From the NCBI GenBank assembly GCA_038731975.1, contig JAVYQJ010000003.1, positions 62,001 to 126,000 on the forward strand: DNA of 64,000 nucleotides, given 5' to 3'. This DNA is from Thermofilaceae archaeon. Its GTDB lineage: Archaea; Thermoproteota; Thermoprotei; Thermofilales; Thermofilaceae. Shown piece after piece: positions 7,942 through 63,907 of this stretch. The position numbers and the translations under genes were made by a program. Position 1 is the stretch's first letter. Every line of letters begins with the position of its first letter. The notes under the pieces are model-generated. The model was not told where the DNA came from and ran no database searches. It saw only the letters and a program-made list of their open reading frames with translations.

Positions 7942-7967
7942 GCGGTAGTGGGGGAGCCCATACCGCT

Positions 7968-8255: not shown

Positions 8256-9250
8256 TTGAAGCTGCTCCAAAAGGGAGGTCCAGGGAGGTTCTCATAAGAG
8301 ATGAGGAGCCGATTTCGAGTTACGGTAAGCGTCCTGAGGAGCGCAGCGTAGACGAGCTGCTGGAGTTTGGAGCCATAAACCTCGATAAGCCGCCTGGGCC
8401 TTCCAGTCACGAGATCGTCGCTTGGCTAAGAAGGATCACCGGTATCGAGAAGATCGCGCATGCAGGCACTCTTGATCCCAAAGTGACAGGTGTTTTACCC
8501 ATACTACTCAACAGGTCGATAAAGGTTGTGCCTTACCTCCTGGCCGAAGACAAGGAGTACGTTGGCGTCATGAGGTTGCACGGCGATGCTGACGAGGATG
8601 AAGTAAAGCGTGTTGTCAGCATGTTTAAGGGGCCTGTCTATCAGAGGCCTCCGCTCAGGTCTGCTGTCAAGAGGGCGTTAAGGGTTAGGCGCATCTACGA
8701 CGTAAAAGTCCTAGAAGTTGCGGGCAGGGACGTGCTGTTCTGGATATGGTGCGAGGCGGGCACTTACATCAGAAAGTTCTGTCACGATGTCGGCGTCCTG
8801 CTTGGAGTAGGTGCCCACATGCAGGAGCTCAGGAGGGTAAGGAGTGGCAGCCTTAAGGAAGAGGAGAGCGTCACGTTGCACGACGTTGCTGACGCCTTCG
8901 CAGCCTGGAGAGAAGAGGGTAATGAGGACTACATAAGGCGAGTGGTGGTTCCTGTCGAGCGGGTCGTCGAACACTTGCCTCGCATAGTTGTTCGCGACAG
9001 CGCGGTCGACGCCATCGCTCACGGGGCTCCTTTAGCGGTACCCGGAATACTACTTATTGATGCAGGGATCAAAGTTGGGGATGTTGTTGCAATCTTCACG
9101 AAAAAGAACGAGTTGGTGGCGATAGGTAGAGCCCTAATGAGGAGCGAGCAAATGCTTGCTGCAAAGAAGGGGGAGGCGGTTAAGCCTGAAGCTGTCATTA
9201 TGAAGCCTGGAACCTACCCAAGAATGTGGGGTAGCAGTAAGAAGCCATGA
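8252..9250 (+). CDS. cbf5: tRNA/rRNA pseudouridine synthase Cbf5 (dyskerin/TruB family)
   Basis: A 332-residue catalytic subunit of H/ACA ribonucleoproteins, which convert uridine to pseudouridine in rRNA and tRNA position 55. The catalytic aspartate lies in [14 protein letters not shown] near residues 70-83. Other family segments are [12 protein letters not shown] near the N-terminus, [18 protein letters not shown] and the [12 protein letters not shown] motif. The C-terminal 85 residues form a PUA RNA-binding domain ([18 protein letters not shown]). It overlaps L14e by four bases and precedes a tRNA-Ser gene. Confidence 0.97.
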
Positions 9251-9340
9251 CCGATTACTAAGCATCAACCGGCGCGATGGGCATTTCTTGGAGGCCGCTG
9301 CGCTTCAGCGAGGCAACGGTACATGCGTATGAGGGAAACA

Positions 9341-9350
9341 AGTTTAATAG
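9341..9350 (+). promoter_or_regulatory. TATA box of the tRNA-Ser gene
   Basis: AGTTTAATAG is centred about 28 bases before the first base of the mature tRNA, the normal distance for an archaeal tRNA promoter whose message starts at or close to the 5' end. Confidence 0.6.
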
Positions 9351-9372
9351 AGAGCTGAGCAATGCTCCCCTT

Positions 9373-9475
9373 GCCGGGGTGGCCGAGCGGACCAAGGCGG
9401 TGGCCTGGAGTACTGGCTTCGGGTAGCCACTGCCCCTTTCGGGGCTCCCGGGTTCGAATCCCGGCCCCGGCGCCA
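9373..9475 (+). tRNA. tRNA-Ser (GGA anticodon) with a 14-base intron, CCA encoded
   Basis: The acceptor stem pairs GCCGGGG (9373-9379) with CCCCGGC (9465-9471), followed by discriminator G and an encoded CCA. The D stem is GCC/GGC, the anticodon stem GTGGC (9400-9404) with GCCAC (9426-9430), and the T arm CCGGG-TTCGAAT-CCCGG. The long variable arm, GCCCC-TTTC-GGGGC, marks a class II tRNA, consistent with serine. With 9411-9424 removed the anticodon loop is CTGGAGA, with anticodon GGA reading serine UCC/UCU. All stems pair by eye. Confidence 0.93.
9411..9424 (+). other. Canonical tRNA intron (37/38 position) in tRNA-Ser(GGA)
   Basis: Fourteen bases, TACTGGCTTCGGGT, lie between G37 and A38, the usual archaeal intron site one base after the anticodon. 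Removing them restores a seven-base loop. Splicing by the archaeal endonuclease is expected from the site; the bulge-helix-bulge pairing was not computed. Confidence 0.85.
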
Positions 9476-9536
9476 CTCCAGACAGCGGGTTATAGCAGAA
9501 GAGTTAAAAGCACGAGTAAGTGGGCTTGACGATCGT

Positions 9537-9989
9537 ATGGCTGAGCAGGAGTTCAAGTACATAGTCCGCATAGCGGATAAGGATCTTCCAGGGGACAAAA
9601 ACATAGTCTACGCTCTATCCTTGATAAAAGGCATCGGTGTAAATGCCGCGTACGCGCTCTGTCGCAAGCTCGGAATCGACACGGGAAGGAAGCTTGGTTC
9701 CCTTACGGAGGAGGAGATAAGCAAGGTTGATGAGGCTGTGAGAGAGCTGCATAAACTAGGTTTACCCTCCTGGCTTTACAACAGGCGACGGGATCCTCGG
9801 CTCGGCATTGACAGGCACTTGATCGGAGCCGATCTTGTGCTCACGGTGAAGAGTGACATAGATTTGATGAAGGAGATAAAGTGCTGGAGAGGAATACGGC
9901 ATATGCTGGGGCTTAAGGTCAGGGGGCAGCGGACTCGAACCACGGGTAGAACGGGCATTACAGTAGGCGTAAAGAAACCGAAGAAGTAG
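9537..9989 (+). CDS. rps13: Ribosomal protein S13 (uS13)
   Basis: A 150-residue small-subunit protein of the head domain. It has the N-terminal helix-two-turn-helix region (ALSLIKGIGVNAAYALCRK) and the C-terminal CWRGIRHMLGLKVRGQRT followed by the basic TRTTGRTG tail that reaches the tRNAs. The start ATG is 61 bases after the tRNA; a TTAAAAG element at 9503-9509 could be its TATA box. S4 follows directly. Confidence 0.97.
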   Translation: MAEQEFKYIVRIADKDLPGDKNIVYALSLIKGIGVNAAYALCRKLGIDTGRKLGSLTEEEISKVDEAVRELHKLGLPSWLYNRRRDPRLGIDRHLIGADLVLTVKSDIDLMKEIKCWRGIRHMLGLKVRGQRTRTTGRTGITVGVKKPKK

Positions 9990-9998
9990 GTGTTCTGG

Positions 9999-10520
9999 AT
10001 GGGGGATCCGAAAAAACCGAAGAAAAAGTGGGAGGGGCCTGCGCATCCTTGGCGTAAGGACGTTTTAGCGCAGGAGCTTTATCTGATAGGTAAGTACGGC
10101 TTGCGCAATAAGAGGGAGCTTTGGATCGCTAAGACGATGCTCCGCAGATGGAGGATGCGGGCTAGACGGCTACTTGCGCTACCTCCAGAACTGAGAGAGG
10201 CTCGTGCAAAGCCGCTGATATCCAAGCTTTATCACCTTGGGCTGCTGGCGAGCGAGGAAGCATCGCTAAGCGACATTCTCAGGTTGACGGTTGAGGATGT
10301 TCTCGAGAGGCGTCTTCAGACGATCGTCTACAAGAGGGGGTTGGCTACCAGCCTGTATCACGCGCGTCAACTAATAACGCATGGCCACATAGCGATAGGG
10401 GGGCGACGAGTTAGGAGCCCTGGATACATGGTGTCAAGGGAGGAGGAGGGGCTGATTGGTTTCTATCCGCTATCACCCCTAGCCCGGAGTGCATCAGGCG
10501 AAGTTGGTGCTCAAGTTTAA
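9999..10520 (+). CDS. rps4: Ribosomal protein S4 (uS4)
   Basis: A 173-residue primary rRNA-binding protein. The archaeal N-terminus MGDPKKPKKKWEGPAHPW decides the start at ATG 9999; a GTG three codons upstream (9990) is in frame but not part of the family. The S4 RNA-binding domain is visible as RLQTIVYKRGLATSLYHARQ, then LITHGHIAIGGRRVRSPGY. It begins ten bases after the S13 stop and ends 36 bases before S11, the conserved S13-S4-S11 order. Confidence 0.97.
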   Translation: MGDPKKPKKKWEGPAHPWRKDVLAQELYLIGKYGLRNKRELWIAKTMLRRWRMRARRLLALPPELREARAKPLISKLYHLGLLASEEASLSDILRLTVEDVLERRLQTIVYKRGLATSLYHARQLITHGHIAIGGRRVRSPGYMVSREEEGLIGFYPLSPLARSASGEVGAQV

Positions 10521-10543
10521 ACCAAGTTTAAAATATGGCTTTC

Positions 10544-10551
10544 GGAGGTGA
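10544..10551 (+). promoter_or_regulatory. Shine-Dalgarno site deciding the rps11 start
   Basis: GGAGGTGA is complementary to the archaeal 16S 3' end and lies five bases before GTG 10557. An in-frame GTG at 10548 falls inside the site itself, so 10557 is the better start. Confidence 0.75.
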
Positions 10552-10556
10552 GGATT

Positions 10557-10988
10557 GTGAGTGAAGAAGCGCGAGCGAGCGATAAGGGGCACGGGGGGTC
10601 TAGGAAGAGTGACGTGGGTATAGCGTGGATCTACGCCAGCTACAACAACACAATAATCCACATAACGGATCTCAGCGGTGCTGAGACTATAGCCTTCGTA
10701 ACGGGTGGAATGATCGCTAAAGCCGACAGAGATAAGCCCAGCCCCTGGGCAGCCATGCAAGCTGCAGCACGGGCTGCTAAGATAGCACTGGAGAAAGGGA
10801 TAAGGGTGGTTCACGTGAAAGTAAAAGCCCCTGGCGGCTACGGTCCTAAGACCCCGGGACCGGGCGCGGGGCCAGCAATCCGAGCGCTTGTCAGAGCCGG
10901 TTTAATAGTAGATCGGGTGGAGGACGTCACACCGCTGCCTACTGATAGCATAAGGAAACCCGGCGGGCGCAGGGGTAGGCGCGTCTAA
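10557..10988 (+). CDS. rps11: Ribosomal protein S11 (uS11)
   Basis: A 143-residue platform protein of the small subunit. Family segments are [20 protein letters not shown] near residues 21-40, [13 protein letters not shown] near residue 75, [20 protein letters not shown], and the arginine-rich C-terminus ([11 protein letters not shown]). It starts with GTG behind a perfect Shine-Dalgarno site. In most archaea rpoD follows S11; here a gene-free stretch of 163 bases and a convergent nucleotidyltransferase follow. Confidence 0.97.
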
Positions 10989-11151
10989 GCTGAGTCTGCG
11001 CTGCCGTACGTTGTCTCCTTTTCGAGTTTTACCTTCGCTACTTACCTTTACCGGATGATTATCAGAATTCTCCGAATTTAGGACTTCATTATTCGTATGA
11101 CATCTCTGAGGGTCATGCTCGAGTAGGTTGCAGACGCGTTTAGGATGTTTT

Positions 11152-11973
11152 CTAAGCTAGGAGAAAGCCTAGCACCTCGTCCACAACATGCGGGTCGAGT
11201 TTCTCGTACCTTTCCGTTGAGCCTACATCGTACCAGAAGGCATCGGTCAGGTAGCCTTCAACGTGGTAACCACGCTCTATTAGCTGCGGGATGAAGTGCT
11301 GCATGAGGTCCAGCTCTTGCAGAGGTTTCGCTAACTCCTCGAGGATTTTCAGCACCTCTGTTTTTACTGCGAGTACCCCTATCACGACAGGCTTGCCCAA
11401 CGGTGGTTTCTCCCTGAGGCTCACGATTTTCGTACCTGCGACCTCTGCTACGCCCACGCTAACGGTATAGTTGGTTGAGAGAGCTAGAGTGGCTGCAGCA
11501 CCCTTCTCACGGTGTACGCGTAGCATATCTGTGAGATCAAGGTTGGTTAGAATGTCCCCGTAGTAGATGAGCACGTCGTCAAACCCGGAGAAGACCCCCC
11601 TGCGGCTAGCGTTGAGTAGAGCACCCCCGTTCCCCCTGTAGTTGGGGTCGTCGTGGACGTATTCGAGCCTCACTCCGAAACGGCTCCCATCATCGAAATA
11701 GTTCATGATTTGCTCAGCCTTGTAGTTCACGAGTAATGCTACGTCTACAATCCCATGGTACTTCATCAGTCGGATGACGTACTCGAGAAGCGGCTTCTGC
11801 TTGAGACCGATCGGTATCATTGTTTTCTGGAAGTAGTAGGTCAAAGGCCTTAATCGTGAGCCGGTGCCACCGCAAAGGACGGCTCCTTTAACCCTACGCG
11901 CCCCCACAGGATGGAATTTCTGCCCATAAAAATACTTTTGGCGATCGTCTCTCCGCTGCTCGGCTTGCACCAT
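11152..11973 (-). CDS. Sugar-phosphate nucleotidyltransferase
   Basis: A 273-residue single-domain nucleotidyltransferase, making an NDP-sugar from a sugar-1-phosphate and an NTP. The signature GGTGSRLRPLTYYFQKTMIP is at about residues 35-54, and the YYGDILTN metal-binding segment near residues 137-144. There is no left-handed beta-helix domain, unlike the second nucleotidyltransferase at 16.0-17.2 kb. Glucose-1-phosphate thymidylyl-, uridylyl- or mannose-1-phosphate guanylyl-transferase are all possible. It is transcribed away from enolase and appears to share one TATA element with it. Confidence 0.87.
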   Translation of the reverse strand: MVQAEQRRDDRQKYFYGQKFHPVGARRVKGAVLCGGTGSRLRPLTYYFQKTMIPIGLKQKPLLEYVIRLMKYHGIVDVALLVNYKAEQIMNYFDDGSRFGVRLEYVHDDPNYRGNGGALLNASRRGVFSGFDDVLIYYGDILTNLDLTDMLRVHREKGAAATLALSTNYTVSVGVAEVAGTKIVSLREKPPLGKPVVIGVLAVKTEVLKILEELAKPLQELDLMQHFIPQLIERGYHVEGYLTDAFWYDVGSTERYEKLDPHVVDEVLGFLLA

Positions 11974-11992
11974 TCAAGAGCATAAAGATAAT

Positions 11993-12004
11993 GGTTTTAT
12001 AACC
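11993..12004. promoter_or_regulatory. Symmetric TATA element between divergent nucleotidyltransferase and enolase
   Basis: GGTTTTATAACC is nearly palindromic (GGTT...AACC) and lies about 26 bases from both start codons: ATG 12025 of enolase on the plus strand and ATG 11973 of the nucleotidyltransferase on the minus strand. A single TATA box could therefore direct leaderless transcription both ways. The arrangement is seen directly; use in both directions is inferred. Confidence 0.6.
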
Positions 12005-12024
12005 TTCTCCGCGCGCGTAGCTTG

Positions 12025-13335
12025 ATGAGCGAAACCCCACTCGTAGAGAACGAGTTCACGATAGTTCTCGTAAAGGGTAGGTGGATCTTAGACTCGAGAG
12101 GAAACCCCACCGTCGAGGCCGATGTAGTTACAGCCGGTGGTGGCATTGGAACGGCAGCCGTACCTGCCGGTGCTTCACGTGGCACGTACGAGGCGCTGGA
12201 GCTTAGGGATGGTGGTAAGAAGTTCCAGGGGAAAGGTGTAGAAAGAGCCGTGTCCAACATCAACGGGTTGATAGCCCAGCGAGTAATCGGCATGGACTCG
12301 AGGGATCAGGAGAGGGTCGACAAAGTTATGATCGAGCTGGACGGCACGCCGAATAAGTCGAAGCTCGGCGCGAATGCTATACTAGCGGTATCGCTAGCCA
12401 CGGCTAAAGCTGCTGCTTCGACCTACGGAATGCCGCTCTTCCAGTACTTGGGTGGAAAGCTCGCGCGAGTGCTGCCTACCCCACTTATGAACGTGATTAA
12501 CGGTGGCAAGCACGCAGGCAACGAGTTGAGCATCCAGGAGTTCATGATAGTGCCCGTGGGGAGTGACAAGTTCTCGGAAGCGCTTAGAATGGCTTGCGAA
12601 GTTTACTACAGTCTCAAGGAAGTCCTCGTCTGGAGGTACGGTAAGAGCTCCATCAACGTCGGAGACGAGGGCGGTTTTGCTCCACCCATGAAAGAGAGCA
12701 GGGAGGCCTTAGACGCGCTCATCGAAGCGATTAAGAAGGCTGGCTATGAGCCGGGCAACGAGTTCGTCCTAGCACTCGATGCAGCGGCTTCAAGTTTTTA
12801 CGCTGGGGGACGCTACAGAATCGACGGTAAGGAGCTGGGTAGGGGTGAACTGATAGATTACTACCTGGAGTTGGTCAACGAATACCCGATAGTTTCGCTG
12901 GAAGACCCCCTCGAGGAAGAGGATTTCGAGGGATTCAGGGAGATTACCAGCAAGTTGAAACAGCGGGGCGTGCAAGTCGTTGGTGATGATCTCTTCGTAA
13001 CGAACGTTAAGCGCCTTATGAAAGGAATTGAAGTGGGCGCTGCGAGCGCGCTCCTCCTCAAAGTTAACCAGATAGGAACGTTGACCGAAGCTTTAGAGGC
13101 GGCACACCTAGCTCAAAGGTGCGGGCTTAACGTAATCGTCTCGCACAGGAGTGGTGAAACCGAAGACACATCCATTGCTCACATTGCTGTCGCGCTGAGC
13201 TGCGGCCAAATAAAGACCGGCGCGCCAGCGAGGGGCGAGAGAACGGCTAAGTACAACGAGCTACTCAGGATAGAAGAGTACTTAGCGGGGGAGGCAGTCT
13301 ACTTGGGGTTAAAGGCCATCAGGAGAGGCCTCTAG
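12025..13335 (+). CDS. eno: Enolase
   Basis: A 436-residue glycolytic enzyme interconverting 2-phosphoglycerate and phosphoenolpyruvate. Visible are the N-terminal RWILDSRGNPTVEADV, the AAVPAGASRGTYEALELRDG substrate loop, the metal-binding positions in LALDAAASSFY, VSLEDPLEEEDFEGF and VVGDDLFVTN, the catalytic lysine in LLLKVNQIGTLTEA and SHRSGETEDTSIAH. An in-frame TTG lies one codon earlier; ATG 12025 is preferred. In many archaea eno sits beside rpoK and rps2; here it is alone with a HAD phosphatase six bases downstream. Confidence 0.97.
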   Translation: MSETPLVENEFTIVLVKGRWILDSRGNPTVEADVVTAGGGIGTAAVPAGASRGTYEALELRDGGKKFQGKGVERAVSNINGLIAQRVIGMDSRDQERVDKVMIELDGTPNKSKLGANAILAVSLATAKAAASTYGMPLFQYLGGKLARVLPTPLMNVINGGKHAGNELSIQEFMIVPVGSDKFSEALRMACEVYYSLKEVLVWRYGKSSINVGDEGGFAPPMKESREALDALIEAIKKAGYEPGNEFVLALDAAASSFYAGGRYRIDGKELGRGELIDYYLELVNEYPIVSLEDPLEEEDFEGFREITSKLKQRGVQVVGDDLFVTNVKRLMKGIEVGAASALLLKVNQIGTLTEALEAAHLAQRCGLNVIVSHRSGETEDTSIAHIAVALSCGQIKTGAPARGERTAKYNELLRIEEYLAGEAVYLGLKAIRRGL

Positions 13336-50177: not shown

Positions 50178-50411
50178 TAGCCCCATGTACAGACTAAGAC
50201 ACGCGAGCGCCAGCGCGAAACCCCAGACGCAGCTGAAGAGCTCACAAGACTCGCTAGCTACACTGTCTAGTCAAGGCCGCGTGGCCAGCAGTCTGCAGGC
50301 TTGTTGAGCGATTCCCTCCGCAAGCGCGAGACTTTAGGGACGCAGTTTCACTACAGTATCTCGACGACAAGGTAATATTGCGGCTACAGCAACCTATTCC
50401 AGAGTTTGGCC

Positions 50412-51740
50412 ATGGGCTTGAAGGAAGAGCTGCTCCACCTCTTGAAAACCGATGAGGAGTTCCGCTATGCGGTAGCAGGTCTACTCGGTTACGACGAAAT
50501 TCTGAAGCGCGTGAGAAGACAGGAGAAGCAGATTGCAAAGCTCCGCAGAGAGATGTACAAGAGCCTCGCACGCCTCAGCGAAGCCGTAGAAAAGCTAGCT
50601 GAAATCGCGACAAAGCACACGGAAGAAATCACTCGATTGAGAGCTGAAATGCTGGAGGGTTTCAAGAGGCATGACGAGGAGATCGCCCAGTTGAGGAGAG
50701 AGATGTTAGAGGGTTTCAAGAGGCACGACGAGCTGCTCGCCAAGCACACGGAGGAAATCGCTCAATTGAGGAGAGAGATGTTAGAGGGCTTTAGGCGTCA
50801 TGATGAGCTGCTCGCTAAGCATAGCGAGGAGATCGCTCAGCTGAGGAGAGAGATGATCGAGGGTTTCAAGAGGCATGATGAGTTGCTCGCTAAGCATAGC
50901 GAGGAGATTACTCGATTGAGAGCTGAAATGATCGAGGGTTTCAAGAGGCACGATGAGGAGATCGCTCAACTGCGGAAGGAGATGCTGGAGGGTTTTAAGC
51001 GTCATGATGAGCTGCTCGCTAAGCATGACGAGGAGATCGCCCAGTTGAGGAGAGAGATGTTAGAGGGTTTCAAGAGGCACGACGAGCTGCTCGCCAAGCA
51101 CACGGAGGAAATCGCTCAATTGAGGAGAGAGATGTTAGAGGGCTTTAGGCGTCATGACGAGGAGATATCTCAGCTGCGGAAGGAGATGCTGGAGGGTTTT
51201 AAGAGGCATGACGAGGAGATCGCCCAGTTGAGGAGAGAGATGATTGAGGGTTTCAAGAGGCACGACGAGCTCTACGCTAAGCTAGCCGAAGCTGTTGCGA
51301 AGCTGGGAGAGGAAGTCGCCCGGCTTGACAAGCGCATCACGGGGCTCCACTCAGCTCTACTGGCGGGCCTCGGAGAGGTAAGCAAGTTCGCTGGGTTAAC
51401 GTTTGAGGAGCTCGTGAGAAAGCTCCTAACAGCGCAGCTGAGGGGGACCGGAACGATACCCCCCGACGCGGAGCTGAGGGCTGCGAGCATCGACGGTGAG
51501 CAGGTCGACATCTTCCTCGAAGACCCCCTCGTCGTCGGTGAAGTCACAAGCTACGCGGAGACGGCTGAAGAGGCGAGCAAGCTCCTCAGGAAAGCTGAAG
51601 CAGCGAGGAGGAAGTTCGGCAGAGAACCGCTGAAGTTCCTCGTCATCCTCACCGCCAGAAGAGAGGCTGCCAGAGAACTGGAGAGGATAGCCAGAGAGAA
51701 CAACATCGAGCTAACAATCGGGAAGATAGTCGAAGACTAG
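50412..51740 (+). CDS. Long modular coiled-coil protein with degenerate PD-(D/E)XK-like C-terminal domain
   Basis: A 442-residue protein. Residues 1-40 (MGLKEELLHLLKTDEEFRY, then VAGLLGYDEIL) form a helical head shared with the protein at 54416-55189. Residues 71-292 are ten near-identical modules of 18 or 25 residues, each reading EEIxxLRxEMxEGFxRHD with an optional ELLAKHx. The C-terminal 130 residues resemble DUF3782-type nuclease folds: DGEQVDIFLEDPLVVGEVTS has the acidic residues but EVT in place of ExK, so activity is doubtful. Start is ATG 50412; an in-frame TTG is two codons earlier. Confidence 0.85.
   Translation: MGLKEELLHLLKTDEEFRYAVAGLLGYDEILKRVRRQEKQIAKLRREMYKSLARLSEAVEKLAEIATKHTEEITRLRAEMLEGFKRHDEEIAQLRREMLEGFKRHDELLAKHTEEIAQLRREMLEGFRRHDELLAKHSEEIAQLRREMIEGFKRHDELLAKHSEEITRLRAEMIEGFKRHDEEIAQLRKEMLEGFKRHDELLAKHDEEIAQLRREMLEGFKRHDELLAKHTEEIAQLRREMLEGFRRHDEEISQLRKEMLEGFKRHDEEIAQLRREMIEGFKRHDELYAKLAEAVAKLGEEVARLDKRITGLHSALLAGLGEVSKFAGLTFEELVRKLLTAQLRGTGTIPPDAELRAASIDGEQVDIFLEDPLVVGEVTSYAETAEEASKLLRKAEAARRKFGREPLKFLVILTARREAARELERIARENNIELTIGKIVED
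50622..51287 (+). repeat. In-gene tandem repeat: ten 54- or 75-base modules
   Basis: The modules encode 18, 25, 25, 25, 18, 25, 25, 18, 18 and 25 residues, in that order. They differ by only a few bases, mostly third positions. The 25-residue form is the 18-residue form plus one heptad, so any gain or loss of modules keeps both the reading frame and the coiled-coil register. Recent duplication or recombination is likely. Confidence 0.9.
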
Positions 51741-54415: not shown

Positions 54416-55189
54416 ATGGCTCTGGTCGACCTTAAGAGCGAGCTCCTCCGCCTCCTAAAGGAGGACGAGGAGTTCCGGTACACGGTGGCAGGCCTACTCG
54501 GCCTCAAAGAAATCCTCAACGAGCTCCGGAAGCTGCGCAAGGACTTCCTAACCTTCGTGAAGGAGCAGGAGAAGCGTTGGGAGGAGAATAACAGGAGGTG
54601 GGAGGAGAGCAACAGGAGGTTCCTGTCGCTGGAGGGCGAACTCGTAAAGCTCCGGGAGGACTTCCTCGCGTTCGTAAGGGAGCAGGAGAAGCGCTGGGAG
54701 GAGACCAACAGGAGGTTTTTGTCGCTGGAGACTGAGCTTGCGAAGCTGCGGGAGGACTTCCTAACCTTCGTGAAGGAGCAGGAGAAGCGTTGGGAGGAGA
54801 ATAACAGGAGGTGGGAGGAGAGCAACAGGAGGTCCTCCCGCATCGAGATGGAGCTGGGCAGCCTATCGGAGAGCCTCTACTGCCGGTACGTCTCCGAGGA
54901 CATCGAGAAGGAGCTGGCCGCGGCTGGCGAGCGAGTCACCTCGAGGATGAGGAACGCCGACTTCGACGGCGTCGAGGTCGACCTAGCCATCATCACCGAC
55001 AGAGCCGTGTACATCGTCGAAGCGAAGACCAAGCCCACCAGAAGAGCGGTCGAAGCCCTCCTCGCGAAAGCCGAAGCAGTCCAGAAGAGGACGGGCAAGC
55101 CCGTCGTACCCATCCTCACCGGAGCCCTCATCGGCAGGGAAATCGAAGCCTACGCGAGAAGCAAGGGGGTCCGAGTATACAAGTACTAG
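54416..55189 (+). CDS. Coiled-coil protein with PD-(D/E)XK nuclease-like domain (DUF3782-type)
   Basis: A 257-residue protein. Residues 1-35 share the head of the protein at 50412-51740 (LKSELLRLLKEDEEFRYTVA). Residues 40-145 are three coiled-coil modules built on LRxDFLxFVxEQEKRWEE plus runs of NNRRWEESNRR. The C-terminal domain has D189 in VEVDLAIITDR, then E202 and K204 in VYIVEAKTK, the complete PD-(D/E)XK core, so it may cut nucleic acid. It is the active-looking relative of the longer modular protein. A TATA-like TTTATAAGA (54372-54380) lies upstream. Confidence 0.85.
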   Translation: MALVDLKSELLRLLKEDEEFRYTVAGLLGLKEILNELRKLRKDFLTFVKEQEKRWEENNRRWEESNRRFLSLEGELVKLREDFLAFVREQEKRWEETNRRFLSLETELAKLREDFLTFVKEQEKRWEENNRRWEESNRRSSRIEMELGSLSESLYCRYVSEDIEKELAAAGERVTSRMRNADFDGVEVDLAIITDRAVYIVEAKTKPTRRAVEALLAKAEAVQKRTGKPVVPILTGALIGREIEAYARSKGVRVYKY

Positions 55190-56065: not shown

Positions 56066-56411
56066 GGAGATCGCGGTAGCAGTTCAAACCTGGAGGCTCA
56101 GAATGCTCCTCGAGTGGCGCAAGCACCTGCCGACCCTAGCCGAAGCCGCGAAGGAGGCCTTCGGGGAAGCAGAAGTCTACATCTTCGGCTCGGCAGTCGA
56201 GGGCAGGCTCACCGCGGACAGCGACATCGACGTCCTCGTGGTCCTGGACCACGTGCCCAGGAGCGGCCTGGAGAGGGCCAAGCTCGTCGACAGGCTGTGG
56301 AAAGCCCTCGAGAAGCGCGGCATCCCACCCTGGTACCCCTTCGAAGTGCACCTCGCAACCAGAGACGAGCTGAAGCTCCTCGAGAAACCCACCCTCCTCA
56401 GAGTGCTGTGA
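56058..56411 (+). CDS. Minimal nucleotidyltransferase, MNT-1 (antitoxin-type)
   Basis: A 117-residue protein of the DNA polymerase beta-like minimal nucleotidyltransferase family. The signature GSx10DxD is GSAVEGRLTADSDIDVLVV, with IFGS before it. A later segment EVHLATRDELKL is shared with MNT-4. GTG 56058 overlaps the end of HEPN-1 and is preferred over an in-frame start at 56040. MNT proteins neutralise HEPN toxins, some by adding AMP to a tyrosine. Confidence 0.87.
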   Translation: MSEEIAVAVQTWRLRMLLEWRKHLPTLAEAAKEAFGEAEVYIFGSAVEGRLTADSDIDVLVVLDHVPRSGLERAKLVDRLWKALEKRGIPPWYPFEVHLATRDELKLLEKPTLLRVL

Positions 56412-56857
56412 CAGCGCAAACGCCGGAAGAACCGCAGGCAATTCAAACCCCGGAAAACCGCGGGCCCGAACGGGAGGCGCTGGCGAAGATCTTCCAAGCC
56501 GAGGAGAGGATCCTGGCCGCCTACCTCTTCGGATCCCGCGCCAAGGGCTACGCGACGCCCGAAAGCGACTACGACATCGCCGTCCTACTCTCGGAAACCC
56601 CGCGGGACCTCCTCGACTTCTACTTGCGCCTACTCAACAAGCTGACCGACACCCTCGGGGACAACGTAGACCTCGTCATCCTCAACGAAGCACCCCCCGA
56701 GCTCAAGTACCAGGTCGTCAAGCACGGCAAACCGATCCACGTTAGAAACGAGCGCGCGAGAGTAGCCTTCGAATCCAGAACCATACGCGAGTACCTCGAC
56801 TTCAGCAGGATCCTAAAAAGGTACGACGAATGCCTAGCGAAGCGGCTCCTACAGTAG
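56408..56857 (+). CDS. Minimal nucleotidyltransferase, MNT-2 (MntA-like)
   Basis: A 149-residue protein. After a loose N-terminal stretch, the core is ERILAAYLFGSRAKGYATPE with SDYDIAVLL next, then LRLLNKLTDTLGDNVDLVIL and a C-terminal helix ESRTIREYLDFSRILKRYD. This is MntA-like, the antitoxin of MntA-HepT pairs. GTG 56408 overlaps the MNT-1 stop by four bases (GTGA). The following gene encodes a HepT-like toxin and overlaps by 28 bases, so MNT-2/HepT-2 is a proper pair. Confidence 0.88.
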   Translation: MTAQTPEEPQAIQTPENRGPEREALAKIFQAEERILAAYLFGSRAKGYATPESDYDIAVLLSETPRDLLDFYLRLLNKLTDTLGDNVDLVILNEAPPELKYQVVKHGKPIHVRNERARVAFESRTIREYLDFSRILKRYDECLAKRLLQ

Positions 56858-57387
56858 GCGAGGCAGCGATCTCCACCGAGGCGGGACAAGCCGCCACCCG
56901 AGGCATCGCAGGGGCACCGGAAAAGCGGCCTGACGCGGAGGGCGGGTCGACCGCGGCGGAGCGAGCACCCGCGGGAAGCGTGAATAGGACGTACGTCGAG
57001 AGGCTCGCATCGGACATCGAGAGGTCCATCAGCACCATCCTCTCCTACACCTCGAAGCCGTACGGGGAGATGAGCGAGGCGGAGAGGTACGCCGTCAGGT
57101 ACAACCTCATCGTGGCGGCCGAGGCTCTAGCGGCGCTCGCCGCACACCTCGCCAGGAGGCTCTACAACGAGGAGCCCGCGACACCGGCGCACGCCCTCGC
57201 GATACTCAGGGATAGGGGTCTACTCACCGAGCCCGAGCGCGAGCACCTCGCACGCCTAACCAGGTTGCGGAACCCGCTCGCCCACGGGTACTGGGCGATA
57301 GATGACGAGAGGATCTACGCGGGCGTCAAGAGCAACTTCGAGAGCGTGAAGAACCTCTTGAAGAGGCTCCGAGAGCATGCCGTGTGA
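56830..57387 (+). CDS. HepT-like (DUF86) HEPN ribonuclease, HepT-2
   Basis: A 185-residue protein. Residues 1-50 are a low-complexity, alanine-rich leader with little predicted structure. The helical core has the HEPN RNase motif R-x4-H in RLRNPLAHGYW near residues 143-153, matching the RNxxxH of HepT toxins. It overlaps MNT-2 by 28 bases and MNT-3 by 11. An RNase or NAD-linked toxin activity is likely from the family but not shown here. The long leader is unusual; a later start cannot be excluded. Confidence 0.84.
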   Translation: MPSEAAPTVGEAAISTEAGQAATRGIAGAPEKRPDAEGGSTAAERAPAGSVNRTYVERLASDIERSISTILSYTSKPYGEMSEAERYAVRYNLIVAAEALAALAAHLARRLYNEEPATPAHALAILRDRGLLTEPEREHLARLTRLRNPLAHGYWAIDDERIYAGVKSNFESVKNLLKRLREHAV

Positions 57388-57814
57388 CCGCTACAGGTAC
57401 TACAGGCTGAGCCCCGAGGAGAGGAGAACCCTCAAGGAGGCCATCAGGAGCACCCTCGAGGGGAGGGGCGTCGAGCTAGCCATAATCTTCGGCAGCTTCA
57501 TCGAGCTGGAATCCTTCAGGGACGTGGACGTAGCCGTCTACGCGAGGGGCGGCCTCGACCTCAACGACGTGATCAAGCTGGCCGCGGAGCTGGAGGAGCG
57601 CACCCGCACCCCGGTAGACGTAGTCCCGCTGGAGAAAGCCCCACCCAGGTTCAGGCACCACATACTGACCAAAGGCGAAGTCCTGCTGGAGAAGCAGCCC
57701 GGCCTCTACGAAGCCCTACTCATGCTCACGCTGGACGAGCTCGCAACCCTCGAAGCCGGCGACCCGCACCCCCAGCCCACCAGCAGCCCCCAAGCAGAGC
57801 AGCGAAACCCCTGA
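57377..57814 (+). CDS. Minimal nucleotidyltransferase, MNT-3
   Basis: A 145-residue protein. The core is VELAIIFGSFIELESFRDVD followed by VAVYARGG, a shortened GS...DVD motif, then ELEERTRTPVDVVPLEKAPP and FRHHILTKGEVLLEK. Its C-terminal 30 residues are proline- and serine-rich. It overlaps HepT-2 by 11 bases. It has no HEPN partner of its own; either HepT-2 or the following HEPN-4 could serve. Confidence 0.83.
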   Translation: MPCDRYRYYRLSPEERRTLKEAIRSTLEGRGVELAIIFGSFIELESFRDVDVAVYARGGLDLNDVIKLAAELEERTRTPVDVVPLEKAPPRFRHHILTKGEVLLEKQPGLYEALLMLTLDELATLEAGDPHPQPTSSPQAEQRNP

Positions 57815-57822
57815 AGCCCCCC

Positions 57823-58212
57823 ATGTCCATCGAGGAGGTCGAGATCCCCCGGAGGAGGGCCCTAACCTTCCTCAACCACGCCAGGGAAGCCGTCGAGCGC
57901 GGGGAGTTCGACTTCGCCCGCCTCTCGAGCGAGCAGGCCGCCCAGCTCTCCGTGATGCTGGAGCTGGCGGGCGAGACCCCCAGGCCGCACCGGGCGAGGG
58001 AGCTGCTCCACCTCCCGAGCAGGCTCGCACCCGAAGCGGAGGAGCCGGTAACCGAGTTCGTCAGGAGGAACAGGGAGGCCCCGAGGGCCCTCGACGACGC
58101 CTACACAGCCTCCAAGCTCCCCTCCACCTACACGCGCGAGGAGGCGCTCGTCAAGCTGGCCGAGAGCCTGATCGAGCTCGTGAGCGAGGTCCTGGAGAGG
58201 TGCAAGCGCTAG
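57823..58212 (+). CDS. HEPN-domain protein, HEPN-4
   Basis: A 129-residue relative of HEPN-1: IEEVEIPRRRALTFLNHARE, FARLSSEQAAQLSVMLELAG, HRARELLHLPSRL and LDDAYTASKLPSTYTREEAL. The DNA is extremely G+C-rich. It overlaps MNT-4 by 13 bases. The pair HEPN-4/MNT-4 is a second copy of HEPN-1/MNT-1, so duplication within the cluster is likely. The tyrosine/arginine pattern around the HEPN signature is weaker than in HEPN-1. Confidence 0.8.
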   Translation: MSIEEVEIPRRRALTFLNHAREAVERGEFDFARLSSEQAAQLSVMLELAGETPRPHRARELLHLPSRLAPEAEEPVTEFVRRNREAPRALDDAYTASKLPSTYTREEALVKLAESLIELVSEVLERCKR

Positions 58213-58616
58213 AGAGGTACTACAGGGCCAGGTACGAGAGGTTCAAGAGCCTCCTCAAGTGGAGGGAGCAGCTGCCCGAGCTCCTCGAAGCCGTCAAGAG
58301 CGTCCTACCCGACGCGGAGGTGTACATCTTCGGCAGCGCCCTCAGAGGCGAGCTCACCGCCAACAGCGACGTAGACGTGCTAGTCGTCACCGACAAAGCC
58401 GCAGGCCCCCAACGCCACCAGCTCGCCGCAGCCATAGAGGAGAAGCTGAAAACCCCCCTCATCTTCGAAATACACCTGGCGACGAGGGAGAAGCTCGACT
58501 GGTACAAGAGGCACGCGAAAGAGCTAATCCCGGCCCAGCAGCTCGCAACCAGCAGCAAAGCCAGCCAAACCCCAGAAGAGGCGCGAGCTGCCACCGAAAT
58601 CGGCCGCGAAGCCTGA
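58200..58616 (+). CDS. Minimal nucleotidyltransferase, MNT-4
   Basis: A 138-residue protein close to MNT-1: DAEVYIFGSALRGELTANSD followed by VDVLVV, and IFEIHLATREKLDWYKRHAK. The nucleotidyltransferase GSx10DxD is intact. The C-terminal 30 residues are low complexity (SSKASQTPEEARAATEI). It overlaps HEPN-4 by 13 bases and closes the seven-gene cluster. Confidence 0.85.
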   Translation: MQALERYYRARYERFKSLLKWREQLPELLEAVKSVLPDAEVYIFGSALRGELTANSDVDVLVVTDKAAGPQRHQLAAAIEEKLKTPLIFEIHLATREKLDWYKRHAKELIPAQQLATSSKASQTPEEARAATEIGREA

Positions 58617-58965: not shown

Positions 58966-59418
58966 GTGAAGCACGAGCAGGCCATTGCGAACGTGGAGTT
59001 TAGGCACGGAGGCAAAGCCGTTAAGATCAAGGTGCTCGTAGATGCAGGCGCTAGCAAAAGCGTTATCTCCAAAAGGCTCGCGGACGAGTTCTAGTCCTGC
59101 ATACCTCTAAGGGAGCCGTACGAGCTTAGAGCAGTGGATGAAAAAGGAAGGTTGAAGATCGTGGGGAGGTGCATGGTCGATGTAGTGTTCCAGGGAGTAA
59201 AAGTGCCAGGAGGCGGAACTTTCGTAAGCGTGGTGATGCCTACGAGAGGTGGGTCCGATCTTACTTGTATCTTTCAAGCGGTTGCATCGCAGGATGGTGG
59301 CAGGCTGTGTCGGGTGTTGCTCTTCGGGTTGTTCGTTCTTTTGGCTTTGAGGTTGGAGCCGGTGTGGGTTACGGTTTTCCGCTGTGCGGGGCTTGTTAGG
59401 GCGGGTGCTGATGCGTAG
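58966..59418 (+). pseudogene. Broken retropepsin-like (clan AA) aspartic protease gene
   Basis: From GTG 58966 the frame encodes VKIKVLVDAGASKSVISKRL, the active-site loop of single-domain retropepsin-like proteases, with DAG where DTG or DSG is usual. A TAG stop at 59092-59094 interrupts it. Translation beyond the stop continues the same fold: REPYELRAVDEKGRLKIVGR and FVSVVMPTRGGSDL, up to about 59262. After that the expected C-terminal strand, such as LLGVTAMEGLGIKV seen at the end of this window, is missing and the frame enters the G/T-rich stretch. So the gene has lost its end as well as its frame. Confidence 0.7.
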
Positions 59419-59945: not shown

Positions 59946-59969
59946 GAAAAACGGGGTGTTTAGCGGCTT
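59946..59969 (+). repeat. Short motif shared with 61788-61810
   Basis: GAAAAACGGGGTGTTTAGCG and the four bases after it recur with one extra base at 61788-61810, in the same strand orientation. Here it precedes MVEL-A; there it lies between MVEL-B and the nuclease gene. It marks the shared flank of the duplicated module. Confidence 0.75.
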
Positions 59970-59980
59970 ACGCCTAGAAG

Positions 59981-59990
59981 CTTTTTAACC
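59981..59990 (+). promoter_or_regulatory. TATA box of MVEL-A
   Basis: CTTTTTAACC is centred 26 bases before ATG 60011. Between them is CCTCTTTACGCG, ending at the ATG, a box that is identical before all three MVEL genes. Confidence 0.65.
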
Positions 59991-60010
59991 CTCATCAACC
60001 TCTTTACGCG

Positions 60011-60643
60011 ATGGTTGAGCTGCAGCGGGGGATCTACAGGTCTGTAGCGATAGGGCTCTGGGCCCCGGTCGAGAAGATCCTGGAATTTGAGGGGGAGGTG
60101 AAGAAGGGGCGGCTGCCGCTCACCGCTCAAGCCATCTTCGACGACGGCAGGGTCGGCTACTTCCTCCTCGCTGAGGCCGGCTTCCCCTACCTGGCTTACG
60201 CGCTGTTCAGCCACGACAAGCCGCGCGACGAGAAGGAGAAAACCCTGTATTACAACAGAGTCATCACCGCCGACATACATGATGTGCTGAAGGAGAAATT
60301 CCCCTACCGCTACTACGACTTCTCCTACAACTGGGAGAGGGTGAGGTTGAACGCACCCAAGGAGGTGTTGGACGAGATGCAGCGCTTCATCGAGTGGGCG
60401 GAGGGGCTGACGCTGGAGGAGGTGAAGGCGATGCTGGAGAAGCTGGTGAAGCTCGAAGAGCAGCAGCGGGTCGAGCCCGAGATCATCTACGACTCGCCCG
60501 AGTGGTGCCTCAGAAACCTCAGGATCATCGCAGCGCTGCTGCGATGGTTCATGGACGAGCGGACCGGGATAAACGTAGTCCTTAAAGTGGGCGTCTGCCG
60601 CAGGATTGGCGAGCCGGGCGTACTGACGGAGTGGGAGGAGTGA
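60011..60643 (+). CDS. MVEL family, copy A (unknown function)
   Basis: A 210-residue protein of a family with three copies in this window; not recognised. The family core is DGRVGYFLLAEAGFPYLAYA followed by LF and KPRDE near residues 47-75, then FIEWAEGLTLEEVKAMLEKL near residues 129-148 and IIYDSPEWCLRNL near residues 161-173. No membrane segment or signal peptide. This copy has no nuclease partner; after its stop the DNA still resembles the partner start (GTGGGAGGAGTG) for a few bases. It is on the strand opposite copies B and C. Confidence 0.8.
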   Translation: MVELQRGIYRSVAIGLWAPVEKILEFEGEVKKGRLPLTAQAIFDDGRVGYFLLAEAGFPYLAYALFSHDKPRDEKEKTLYYNRVITADIHDVLKEKFPYRYYDFSYNWERVRLNAPKEVLDEMQRFIEWAEGLTLEEVKAMLEKLVKLEEQQRVEPEIIYDSPEWCLRNLRIIAALLRWFMDERTGINVVLKVGVCRRIGEPGVLTEWEE

Positions 60644-60681
60644 TGGCTAGCCGGAGGGCGGTTCTAGCGGTGAGCGCCGGC

Positions 60682-60777
60682 GCGGCCGCGTAGGTTGAAT
60701 CTGCACCAGCTCGCACCGGCTGGGAGCAGTACGAGCGGCATCGATGGGAGGGAAGCCGCGCTCTCCTCGGAGGGCTC
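60682..60777 (+). repeat. Imperfect direct repeat, left copy
   Basis: The segment from GCGTAGGTTG to GCCGCGCTCTCCT matches 63478-63565 in the same orientation, with an eight-base gap and scattered changes. Together the two copies bracket MVEL-B, the nuclease gene and MVEL-C. Confidence 0.7.
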
Positions 60778-60832
60778 CCCGACCCCCTCGAGCCTCCATT
60801 CCCGGCTTCTGCGGCTTTCTATCCTTAGGCTG

Positions 60833-61132
60833 CTAGGGGGAGGGTATGCCTGGGCCGACCCAGTACTCCACGCGGAAGCTGAGAAGGGTGCCGACTAGCT
60901 TGTGGTAGAAATCGCCGGTGCTGTGGCTGCTGAAGTGCCAGACTATCTTAACGCCCCTCACTACGTTGAGGTAGATGTCGATGAGCAGCTCCTTGAGCGT
61001 GTTCAGCTTGTTGGCCGACAACGTTGCCACGTTCTTCTCCTCCACGTAGAACGATCTACCCCCGCCCGTGAACCTCAAGTCCAGCTTTCTCTCAAATGCG
61101 ACATATGCCGAGCCCTCACTCCTCCCACCCCG
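60833..61132 (-). pseudogene. Deleted remnant of a PD-(D/E)XK nuclease gene beside MVEL-B
   Basis: The minus strand encodes the C-terminal nuclease domain of the gene at 61833-62720: FERKLDLRFTGGGRSFYVEE, then ANKLNTLKELLIDIYLNVV, to the C-terminus. It is in the same frame as MVEL-B and separated from it only by the MVEL-B stop (TAA 61135-61133). The residue before the lysine is changed to EEK instead of EVK. About 590 bases of the middle of the partner gene are missing here. A protein could form only by stop-codon read-through or from an internal start; the copy is probably dead. Confidence 0.8.
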
Positions 61133-61735
61133 TTAATACACGTGTGGTTCGTCCTCTCTGGGGCTTACAGTCACTTTAAGGCTAACGTCAAACATGGTCC
61201 GCTCGTCGAGGGCCCAGCGTAGCAGTGCGGCCAGGTTCTTGATGCTCCTGAGGCACCACTCGGGCGAGTCGTAGATGATCTCTGGCTTGACCCGCTGCTG
61301 CTTCTCCAGCTCCTCCAGCTTGTCCAGCATCGCCTTCACCTCCTCCAGCGTCAGCTTCTCGGCCCACTCATAGAAGCGCTGCACCTCATCCCCCGCTGCG
61401 TCGAGCAGGCTGAACGGCCGAACGGTGAAGATGTAGAAGAAATAGGGGAACTTGCTCCGCAGCACATGCTCTATGTCGGCGGTGATCAATCTGTCATAGA
61501 ACAGGCGCCTCTCCCTCTCATCGCGCGGCTTGTCGTGGCTGAACAGCGCGTAAGCCAGGTAGGGGAAGCCGGCTTCAGCGAGGAGGAAGTAGCCGACCCT
61601 ACCGTCCTCGAAGCTTGCCGGCTCGGGGAACGGCAGCTCCCTCCTGATCGACTCGTCGAGCGTCAGGATGTCGTCGACGGGGGCCGAGACGTAAGGTATT
61701 ACCTTCTTGGGAATACCTCGCTTCAGCTCAACCAT
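61133..61735 (-). CDS. MVEL family, copy B (unknown function)
   Basis: A 200-residue paralogue of copies A and C: MVELKRGIPKKVIPYVSAPV, the core GYFLLAEAGFPYLAYALF and DKPRDERERRLFYDR, then EWAEKLTLEEVKAMLDKL and IIYDSPEWCLRSIKNLAALL. The region around residues 85-110 varies most. TAA ends it just before the remnant nuclease domain, in frame. It has its own leaderless-type promoter, so it is probably expressed. Confidence 0.8.
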   Translation of the reverse strand: MVELKRGIPKKVIPYVSAPVDDILTLDESIRRELPFPEPASFEDGRVGYFLLAEAGFPYLAYALFSHDKPRDERERRLFYDRLITADIEHVLRSKFPYFFYIFTVRPFSLLDAAGDEVQRFYEWAEKLTLEEVKAMLDKLEELEKQQRVKPEIIYDSPEWCLRSIKNLAALLRWALDERTMFDVSLKVTVSPREDEPHVY

Positions 61736-61756
61736 CGCGTAAAGAGGCTGAAACGG

Positions 61757-61766
61757 GTCTAAAAAG
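61757..61766 (-). promoter_or_regulatory. TATA box of MVEL-B
   Basis: CTTTTTAGAC on the minus strand is centred about 27 bases before ATG 61735, followed by the CCTCTTTACGCG box. Confidence 0.6.
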
Positions 61767-61832
61767 CCTTCGCTCTAGCAACGGGGAGAAAAACGGGGTG
61801 TTTGCGGCTTTCTACCTTTACGCCCCGGGCCG

Positions 61833-62720
61833 CTAGGGGTAGGGTATGCCGCTGTAGCCGATCCAGTACTCCATGCGGAAGGCGAGTGAGGCGCTGATGA
61901 CACTGAAGTAGACGTCGCTGGCGTTATGGTGGCTGAGGTGCCAGACTATTTTGATGCCTTTGTTCACGTTGAGGTAGATGTCGATGAGCAGCTCCTTGAG
62001 CGTGTTCAGCTTGTTGGCCGACATCGTGTTCACGTTCTTCACCTCGACGAAGAACGATCTACCCCCGCCCGTGAACCTAAAGTCCAGCCTCCTCTTAAAG
62101 TAGGGATCTTTGCGATCTTGGATGTGCCTATGCAGCTCGTCGTAGCTGCCGCCCAGGATGTTGCGGAGCACTTCTTCGTGCTCCCTCATGAAGTCCAGCA
62201 GCTCCCGCTTAGATACCTTCTCCACTACAGCGTCCGACCCCCTTAGCTTTACAACCTTCCACCCTCTTTTAGCGGCCTCCTCCATCAGCCTCTTTTCGGT
62301 CTTGCCCCTCCACAGCTGAACGAGCTTCTCCCGAGGTACCTGAGCCTGCTGCTGGTAGTCGACTCCGACGGCACTGGTCTGTGCGCCTTCCGCCTGCCTC
62401 GGCTGTTCGATGTGGCCCGTCGGCACGCCCGGCTGCTGGCTCGGTTGCTGCACTGTGGGCGCCAGCTGCTGCATCTGCCTCGCAACCTCCCGCAGAACGA
62501 GTGGGAGGGACGCCAAGCCGGCTCCAATCCCGATACCGCTGACGTCCGCGACGGAGGGGCACCCCCAGAAGGGCGTACCGTAGGTGCACCGGCCGTAGAC
62601 TTGGTCGGCGAAGGTGAGCGGCGGCTCTGACGGCGTGGGTAGCGAGACCGCGGCCGCCGGAGCCACCCTATACCGAGCCTCCACTTCTCCCACCCAGTCA
62701 ATCCACGCCCGGCTCGTCAA
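61833..62720 (-). CDS. PD-(D/E)XK nuclease-like protein, partner of MVEL-C
   Basis: A 295-residue protein. The first 80 residues have two cysteines (YGRCTYGTPFWGCPSV) and a hydrophobic stretch IGIGAGLASLPLVL. Residues 83-127 are rich in Q, P and A, a flexible linker. The C-terminal half is a nuclease fold with D213, E226 and K228 in RRLDFRFTGGGRSFFVEVKN, followed by ANKLNTLKELLIDIYLNV. The start is TTG 62720, overlapping the MVEL-C stop by 23 bases; GTG 62693, conserved in copies A and B, may be the real start. Target, DNA or RNA, is unknown. Confidence 0.78.
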   Translation of the reverse strand: MTSRAWIDWVGEVEARYRVAPAAAVSLPTPSEPPLTFADQVYGRCTYGTPFWGCPSVADVSGIGIGAGLASLPLVLREVARQMQQLAPTVQQPSQQPGVPTGHIEQPRQAEGAQTSAVGVDYQQQAQVPREKLVQLWRGKTEKRLMEEAAKRGWKVVKLRGSDAVVEKVSKRELLDFMREHEEVLRNILGGSYDELHRHIQDRKDPYFKRRLDFRFTGGGRSFFVEVKNVNTMSANKLNTLKELLIDIYLNVNKGIKIVWHLSHHNASDVYFSVISASLAFRMEYWIGYSGIPYP

Positions 62721-63297
62721 GCCTGGGGTTGACGGTTGCTACGAGGGTAACGTACTGCCTGGTCCGCTCGTCGAGGAGCCAGCGCATCAATGCAGCTAGG
62801 TTCTTGATGCTCTTGAGGCACTCCTCGTCCGGGTCGTAATAGATCTCTGGCTCGACCCGCTGCTGCCTTTCGAGCTCCTCCAGCCAGTCCAGCATCGCCT
62901 CAACGTCCCCCAGCGTCAGCCTCTCGGCCCACTCCAAGAAGCGCTGCACCTCGTTCCCCGCCACCTCGAGCACCTTCGGCCAATAGATGGTGAAGTCGTA
63001 GAAGCGGAAGGGCAAATTGAACAGCACCTTGCCTATGTCGACGGTGATGTCTCTGGTGTAGTAGAGGGCTTCCTCCTTCTCGTCGCGCGGCTTGTCATCG
63101 CCGAAGAGCGCGTAGGCGAGGTAGGGGAAGCCGGCTTCAGCGAGGAGGAAGTAGCCGACCCTACCGTCGCTGAAGCTTGCCGGCTCGGGGAATGGCAGCT
63201 CCTTCCAGACCGACTCGTCGAGCGACCTGATATCATCGAGGTACGTCTTGATGCATAGCACCACACGTCTAGGGATCGCCCGATTCAGCTCCACCAT
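62698..63297 (-). CDS. MVEL family, copy C (unknown function), upstream of the nuclease gene
   Basis: A 199-residue paralogue: MVELNRAIPRRVVLCIKTYL, the core GYFLLAEAGFPYLAYALF and DKPRDEKEEALYYTR, then EWAERLTLGDVEAMLDWL and IYYDPDEECLKSIKNLAALM. It is the only copy still beside an intact nuclease gene, which begins in its last codons; the two form an operon. I do not recognise the family; no catalytic motif stands out, so it may be a regulator, antitoxin or binding partner of the nuclease. Confidence 0.82.
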   Translation of the reverse strand: MVELNRAIPRRVVLCIKTYLDDIRSLDESVWKELPFPEPASFSDGRVGYFLLAEAGFPYLAYALFGDDKPRDEKEEALYYTRDITVDIGKVLFNLPFRFYDFTIYWPKVLEVAGNEVQRFLEWAERLTLGDVEAMLDWLEELERQQRVEPEIYYDPDEECLKSIKNLAALMRWLLDERTRQYVTLVATVNPRLDEPGVD

Positions 63298-63320
63298 CGC
63301 GTAAAGAGGCTGGCTCTAGG

Positions 63321-63330
63321 CTAAAAACCT
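63321..63330 (-). promoter_or_regulatory. TATA box of MVEL-C
   Basis: AGGTTTTTAG on the minus strand is centred about 28 bases before ATG 63297, followed by the CCTCTTTACGCG box shared by all three copies. Confidence 0.6.
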
Positions 63331-63907
63331 TCGCCGTAGCGTCCGGGAGGAAACGGGGGTTACGGGTCAACCGGGCGGCCAGCTTGAGCAGCTCCAGGTT
63401 GGTCAGGGGGCGGGTAGAGCGGGGCTGAGAGCCCCCTGTGCCTGTAGCTGAGCGCCAGGCTGGGGGCGGCTGAGGCGTCCGCGTAGGCTGGGTCCGCACC
63501 GGCCTGGAGCAGTGCGAGTGGCATCCCCGGGAGTGAAAGCCGCGTTCTCCTAGCGAGGAGGCCTTCGGTCGAGCGAACGCTTAGCTTCAGCTTCGTTAGA
63601 GCCGCGGCGCTCGATGGTGGAGGCTTGGCGGAGGGGGTGGTGGTGGTGGGGGTTGTGAGGCTCGATCGGGCGGGTGGGGGAAGCGTTGCTGGGGCTTCGC
63701 GCCGGCCGGTGGGGCTACGTTACGCCCCCGGCGTGGAGTCCGATGAGCCTGGAGCGCGCCTGCTCTTGCGGTGGGCCTTAGGGGAGCGGTTTGATCGGGT
63801 GCGGCCTTTCGAGTGCGGATTCGACACCTCTGCTAAAGTTTGCTTGAAGGCGTGATGCTCGTCAAGCTTCCACCGCGAAGGTTCGATAAACTTATGCTTC
63901 GGTTGTT
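63331..63907. other. G-rich stretch with one repeat, no clear gene
   Basis: Open frames here read as low complexity. A plus-strand frame at 63625-63855 ends RVRPFECGFDTSAKVCLKA, which recalls the ECGF motif of NADH dehydrogenase subunit A but has nothing else of it. It contains the right copy of the direct repeat and a G-rich run around 63615-63700. Confidence 0.4.
63478..63565 (+). repeat. Imperfect direct repeat, right copy
   Basis: Matches 60682-60777 from GCGTAGGCTGGGTCCGCACC to GCCGCGTTCTCCT in the same orientation. Flanks the MVEL-B/nuclease/MVEL-C block on the far side. Confidence 0.7.

Follow-up and report, generated by a model that had tools for sequence, protein, structure and literature searches.

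The window analysed here is a stretch of 64,000 nucleotides from contig JAVYQJ010000003.1 of a Thermofilaceae archaeon, whose genome assembly amounts to 1.85 Mb in 87 contigs. Near its end lie three genes of a protein family that we refer to as MVEL, accompanied by a gene for a PD-(D/E)XK-like nuclease or by what is left of one. MVEL copy A (60011..60643, + strand) encodes 210 residues and has no nuclease gene, while copies B (61133..61735, 200 residues) and C (62698..63297, 199 residues) are on the − strand. Copies A and B are 55–65% identical to C, and the invariant core GYFLLAEAGFPYLAYALF is common to all three, which bears out an initial annotation of the locus as carrying three paralogues of about 200 residues. 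The duplicated unit corresponds to 61933–63528 and reaches some 230 bases upstream of MVEL-C into the end of a decayed membrane-protein gene (63405..63527, − strand) that is also present at a fourth copy, on contig C16 of the same genome. A third gene of the module was considered at this upstream position and rejected: nothing beyond the decayed end is found in C and C16, and no intact version occurs in the relatives searched. The synonymous divergence (dS) between copies is about 0.4–0.7 by the Nei–Gojobori method (NG86), and at this distance the copies are old rather than recent jumps. A 24-base word (gaaaaacggggtgttt.gcggct) occurs both upstream of A (59946–59969) and upstream of B (61787–61810), on the same DNA strand despite the opposed orientation of the two genes, and this arrangement suggests an inversion breakpoint.

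The sole intact nuclease gene follows MVEL-C (61833..62720, − strand) and encodes 295 residues if read from the TTG at 62720. Its product begins with a degraded hydrophobic segment, followed by two cysteines, a glycine-rich second hydrophobic segment, a linker rich in Gln and Pro and a C-terminal core, the putative catalytic residues Asp213 and Glu226-x-Lys228 falling in the last ~85 residues. These three residues are invariant in all three copies that retain the core (C, B and C16), and a further Lys downstream is conserved. The core has its best profile match in the restriction endonuclease (RE) domain of SfsA (PF03749), over 33 residues around the Asp and the ExK motif, with an E-value of 5e-4 and a score of 20.3 bits that is below the curated cut-off of 22.8; the SfsA N-terminal domain is missing and the genomic context is unrelated. 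An AlphaFold2 model from the single sequence reached a mean predicted local distance difference test (pLDDT) score of 41, and the nuclease may have the α-β-β-β-α-β core fold. Given the SfsA match and the conserved residues, the label PD-(D/E)XK is reasonable.

After MVEL-B, a remnant of the nuclease gene (60833..61132, − strand) consists of a trace of the N-terminal start fused to the last ~85 residues, with the core intact, as expected for the internally deleted version described initially. It is open in the MVEL-B frame directly after the MVEL-B TAA codon and has no usable start codon before the catalytic Asp. We tried dN/dS as a gauge of its decay and set it aside, the NG86 value of 0.59 for the C–B pair being uninformative. 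After MVEL-A, only the nuclease start is left (60624..60690, + strand), comprising a Shine–Dalgarno (SD)-like motif and a basic/hydrophobic N-terminus, VMASRRAVLAVSAGAAA, and then a stop codon; this trace is genuine, since none of 2000 shuffled sequences reached its local alignment score against the C and C16 nuclease starts.

Upstream of the MVEL genes, a TATA-like hexamer begins 30–31 bases ahead of the ATG, and this distance suggests leaderless transcription of MVEL. The promoters read CTTTTTA at −30 for A (59981..60010, + strand), CTTTTTA at −31 for B (61736..61766, − strand) and GTTTTTA at −31 for C (63298..63328, − strand). As proposed at the outset, the three also share one box, CCTCTTTACGCG, which abuts the ATG of A at 59999–60010 and lies at 61736–61747 for B and 63298–63309 for C. 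In the whole genome, this box precedes the four MVEL genes and nothing else, differing by one base at C16, and such confinement rules out a role as a general promoter element. At the nuclease starts, the SD-like motif GGGAGGAGTG is conserved in A, B and C16, its counterpart in C being GGGAGAAGTG. The overlap between the MVEL-C and nuclease genes noted in the initial annotation hinges on the TTG start, although the open gene and its conserved Asp213, Glu226 and Lys228 stand; the GTG at 62684, 14 bases beyond the MVEL-C stop, is the likelier start because the motif GGGAGGAGTG points there.

The fourth pair, on contig C16, has the same gene order, in keeping with a two-gene unit that has been duplicated and is partly decaying: its nuclease gene is frameshifted and carries stops. 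The N-terminus of the C16 nuclease, MRARYRVALAAAVLLFMLAEAPLTFADQ, has a mean hydropathy of 2.1 over 19 residues, which gives it the character of a signal or of a membrane segment, and the pair of hydrophobic segments, the conserved Cys pair and the Gln/Pro linker precede the core in both C and C16. Profile-library searches of the nuclease revealed no known trafficking domain, the signal-like start being confined to C16. A fifth MVEL gene is present in G014, a genome of the same family but of a different genus, in which no nuclease is detectable. Adjacency of the two genes, which the initial annotation made a condition of its reading, is thus seen again at C16 and fails once, in G014. Beyond these, the class yields no MVEL relatives in 79 further genomes, and 398 genomes of the phylum give just scattered weak matches to either protein (E 0.002–0.1), over parts of longer or broken frames. 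Public genome contigs and viral contigs hold no relatives of either protein, and neither MVEL in plasmids nor the nuclease in phage records was found. A viral origin was therefore rejected, there being no relatives among viral contigs or PHROGs families and no nuclease in phages, as was a plasmid origin for lack of an MVEL relative in plasmids. Pfam, NCBIfam, PHROGs, PADLOC and the sequences of the Protein Data Bank (PDB) offer no family for MVEL and, for the nuclease, just the sub-threshold SfsA match; PADLOC-DB models give no match at E up to 1. Neither family is thus named in any of the profile libraries, in line with the initial surmise that the pair may be undescribed.

Selection on MVEL was explored with codon maximum-likelihood site models, in our own implementation, on the five sequences A, B, C, C16 and G014. 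The overall ratio ω is 0.32 (model M0). Residues 46–75, a helical core under strong purifying selection, have a mean pairwise dN/dS of 0.10 across all five copies, including the nuclease-less A and G014, whereas the block adjoining this core has a ratio above 1. A class of sites above 1 is preferred in each comparison of models (M7/M8, p = 1.7e-4; M8a/M8, p = 0.004; M1a/M2a, p = 0.02), and 2 of 120 null simulations attained the observed M8a/M8 value (p about 0.02). The signal is robust to dropping columns near gaps, or B, C, C16 or G014. The site models favour diversifying selection on MVEL, a result that largely rests on copy A, the largest contributor to the signal.

An AlphaFold2 model of MVEL-C, computed from an alignment of the three copies in the window, is an α/β structure with a pLDDT of 82 and a predicted template modelling (TM) score of 0.83. 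Projected onto the predicted strands, the flagged sites form a pattern: 29 of the 31 lie within blocks 9–29, 76–112 and 180–193, which hold the long strands (a test devised post hoc), and along each of the two terminal strands they alternate, at 5/6 odd against 0/5 even positions on one (p = 0.015) and 4/4 against 0/4 on the other (p = 0.029), as expected of one exposed face of a sheet. Foldseek searches with this model against the PDB and viral models yielded nothing significant, and no immunity (Im) protein, homing-endonuclease or DNA-binding fold appeared in the list. The top entry is YfbM, of the DUF1877 family (1ryl), in which the order of strands and helices is loosely alike; membership of this family was rejected (Foldseek E = 0.22, TM-scores 0.30/0.35; hhalign probability 0.3%; no Pfam hit, and nothing in relatives). 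The predicted MVEL fold is apparently new.

What is seen at these loci is a repeated gene order, its duplication, decay of the nuclease beside open MVEL frames, a catalytic motif, and a fixed core with variable strands. Tentatively, and with rather less than even confidence, we read MVEL and the nuclease as a lineage-restricted toxin–immunity-like module of new families, with MVEL as an immunity- or antitoxin-like neutraliser. The nuclease, ancestrally carried to the membrane or exported, would cut nucleic acid, and MVEL, a small α/β protein, would bind and block it through the variable face of its β-sheet; nuclease toxicity, its neutralisation by MVEL, the mode of binding and export are all elements that we infer. 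Coupling of translation from MVEL to the nuclease would ensure that the blocker is made first, and the order of the genes and the conserved SD-like motif count in favour of this reading. Once several variants circulate, loss of the nuclease would be cheap and loss of the blocker would expose the cell to the nucleases of its relatives, and because of this unequal cost nuclease copies would rot, whereas MVEL would be kept, gain copies and acquire new specificities. The MVEL frame is open in all five copies. Of the nuclease, by contrast, only the version after C is intact; that of B is truncated and that of C16 frameshifted, while A retains a trace and G014 nothing detectable. This asymmetry is our main clue and fits a neutraliser retained beyond the decay of its toxin.

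The same pattern bears on a sensor–effector arrangement for antiviral, possibly abortive, defence, in which the variable MVEL sheet would sense viral or plasmid proteins and release a membrane-anchored nuclease to destroy DNA. In such a system, the nuclease would be laid out as two hydrophobic segments round a short two-Cys loop, followed by a linker and the catalytic part, and the segments, Cys pair and Gln/Pro linker of C and C16 conform to it; a variable MVEL face suits an arms race, and HEPN/MNT pairs and CRISPR loci occur in the neighbourhoods. MVEL is nevertheless retained where the nuclease has gone (A, B, C16 and G014), and there is no PADLOC match. A sensor without an effector is useless, while a blocker is useful after loss of the toxin, and the decay pattern for this reason favours toxin–neutraliser over sensor–effector logic; we regard the latter as unlikely.

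Several points weigh against a toxin–immunity-like module. Immunity genes of polymorphic-toxin loci usually lie downstream of the toxin. In C, B and C16, MVEL is adjacent to the nuclease on its upstream side, the reverse of this order, and no known immunity or antitoxin family in the profile libraries matches it. Without copy A, the p-values for positive selection are 0.10–0.22, and the test as a whole rests on five sequences, among which conversion between paralogues could distort the signal. The MVEL-C16 gene starts with ATA instead of ATG and may itself be dying. The first hydrophobic segment of the surviving nuclease is degraded (hydropathy 0.61 in C against 2.1 in C16), and the protein may for that reason no longer reach the membrane. 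Finally, homogeneous polyimmunity loci consist of closely spaced genes on the same strand, never split by toxin cassettes (PMC3482391), whereas MVEL-A is inverted (+) relative to B and C (−) and a nuclease gene or remnant intervenes.

Comparison with characterised systems places the toxin–immunity-like module near several of them and within none. Polymorphic toxins with Tox-REase domains and polyimmunity (PMC3482391) resemble it in having a C-terminal toxin of restriction-endonuclease fold, putative in our nuclease, behind an N-terminal trafficking-like segment, for which the signal-like start of C16 is a candidate, in clustered paralogues of one immunity-like family and in truncated toxin copies; MVEL and the nuclease differ in having no catalogued immunity, Tox-REase, trafficking or toxin domain. 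As both the usual gene order and the polyimmunity definition fail, we do not file the module among the polymorphic toxins. In the immunity proteins of colicin DNases, the region that sets specificity is under positive selection and lies over a hotspot that is conserved (PMC4548480). Nuclease immunity proteins thus join a fixed scaffold to a binding face that diversifies, and it is for this pattern that we liken MVEL to them. Colicin and pyocin DNase–Im pairs (PMC4548480) share with the module a small blocker beside a nuclease, the blocker combining a conserved part with a hypervariable, positively selected region. Here, by contrast, the blocker comes first, neither protein is related in fold to its colicin counterpart, the nuclease being PD-(D/E)XK-like rather than HNH, and there is no receptor or translocation domain; the four-helix Im fold is not shared by MVEL, which is modelled as α/β. 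Type II toxin–antitoxin systems also place the neutraliser gene first, closely coupled to a nuclease in second position, but here both proteins are large (MVEL, 199–210 residues), there is no DNA-binding antitoxin domain and the nuclease lies outside the known toxins of that class. For bacteria, conflict systems built on nucleases and their immunity proteins are amply documented, but archaeal examples are poorly characterised. Should MVEL prove to block the nuclease, a thermophile-type archaeon would have yielded a new immunity family whose fold also appears to be new, and tests of specificity could draw on its natural variants; were MVEL a sensor instead, the variable sheet face would mark the ligand-binding surface.

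The two MVEL copies outside the window lie beside CRISPR arrays. Order and orientation, csa3 – array – MVEL, are the same in C16 and G014, where the csa3 gene was assigned by DNA similarity to that of C16, without a Pfam hit; MVEL lies 0.6 kb and 1.1 kb, respectively, past the leader-distal end. A 21-base core of the repeat is exact only in these two genomes among the relatives tested, with near variants in three others, and the linkage may reflect inheritance of one locus. Copies A–C are unlinked, so that two of the five are involved, and the window contains no array by a search with the C16 repeat or for tandem repeats. A related reading takes MVEL as a new archaeal recognition fold with a selection-diversified sheet face, serving as an immunity or self/non-self marker, whose partner is a membrane-tethered nuclease and whose ancestral locus lay beside a type I array; we regard it, too, as unlikely. 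The VARTIG modules of Thermococcales, similarly archaeal, lineage-restricted and hypervariable, are presumed to serve in conflicts or in telling self from non-self (PMC8416519), but centre on large immunoglobulin-domain proteins rather than 200-residue α/β proteins such as MVEL.

It is less probable again that MVEL serves the cell in some unconnected way, perhaps as a regulator or enzyme, with the nuclease a hitch-hiker being lost and the variability a consequence of relaxed constraint after duplication. The lone MVEL of G014 and the modest selection signal, largely dependent on copy A, agree with this; yet the two-gene order is retained at two separate loci, a core at 0.10 beside a block above 1 differs from general relaxation, and the family is missing from close relatives, which argues against a core function. 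We doubt more strongly that MVEL is a CRISPR accessory working with the adjacent type I system, with the nuclease a former auxiliary effector and the window copies relocated duplicates. The conserved order beside the array and the exact repeat core speak for it, but they come from just two genomes and are consistent with one inherited locus, copies A–C persist without an array, and MVEL has its own promoter and no CARF or other CRISPR-type domain. A self-copying selfish nuclease (a homing-like or addiction cassette), with MVEL a regulator or DNA-binding partner whose variable residues read DNA, would account for four copies per genome in two orientations with shared promoter and 3′ flank, but is very improbable given that a comparison of the flanks brought to notice neither terminal repeats nor target-site duplications nor an intron-like insertion, and given the age of the copies and the Foldseek result for MVEL.

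The neighbourhoods contain further genes of note. The array adjoining the C16 copy (5365–12910 of locus L013) is very long (the genome contains its repeat core 187 times without mismatch) and is accompanied by type I cas genes (Csa2/DevR and Csa3). In G014, a HerA helicase gene and an adjoining gene, probably NurA, lie between MVEL and the cas1/cas6 genes (L014, 5994–8758). HEPN/MNT nucleotidyltransferase pairs of toxin–antitoxin type lie beside the MVEL cluster at 56300–58616 of the window (PF05168; PF18765 for 57377–58212), and a similar pair was recognised, by reading only, near the C16 copy (L013, 17726–18472). Small retropepsin-like genes with VDTGA or VDSGA motifs surround the MVEL cluster (L012, 5908–6210, 7501–7860 and 11661–12038), and a decayed copy lies inside it, near 58990–59270 of the window. 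Two coiled-coil proteins with a nuclease-like C-terminus are encoded at 50406–51740 and 54416–55189 of the window; they contain in-frame tandem repeats of 75-base and 96-base units, the number of which probably varies.

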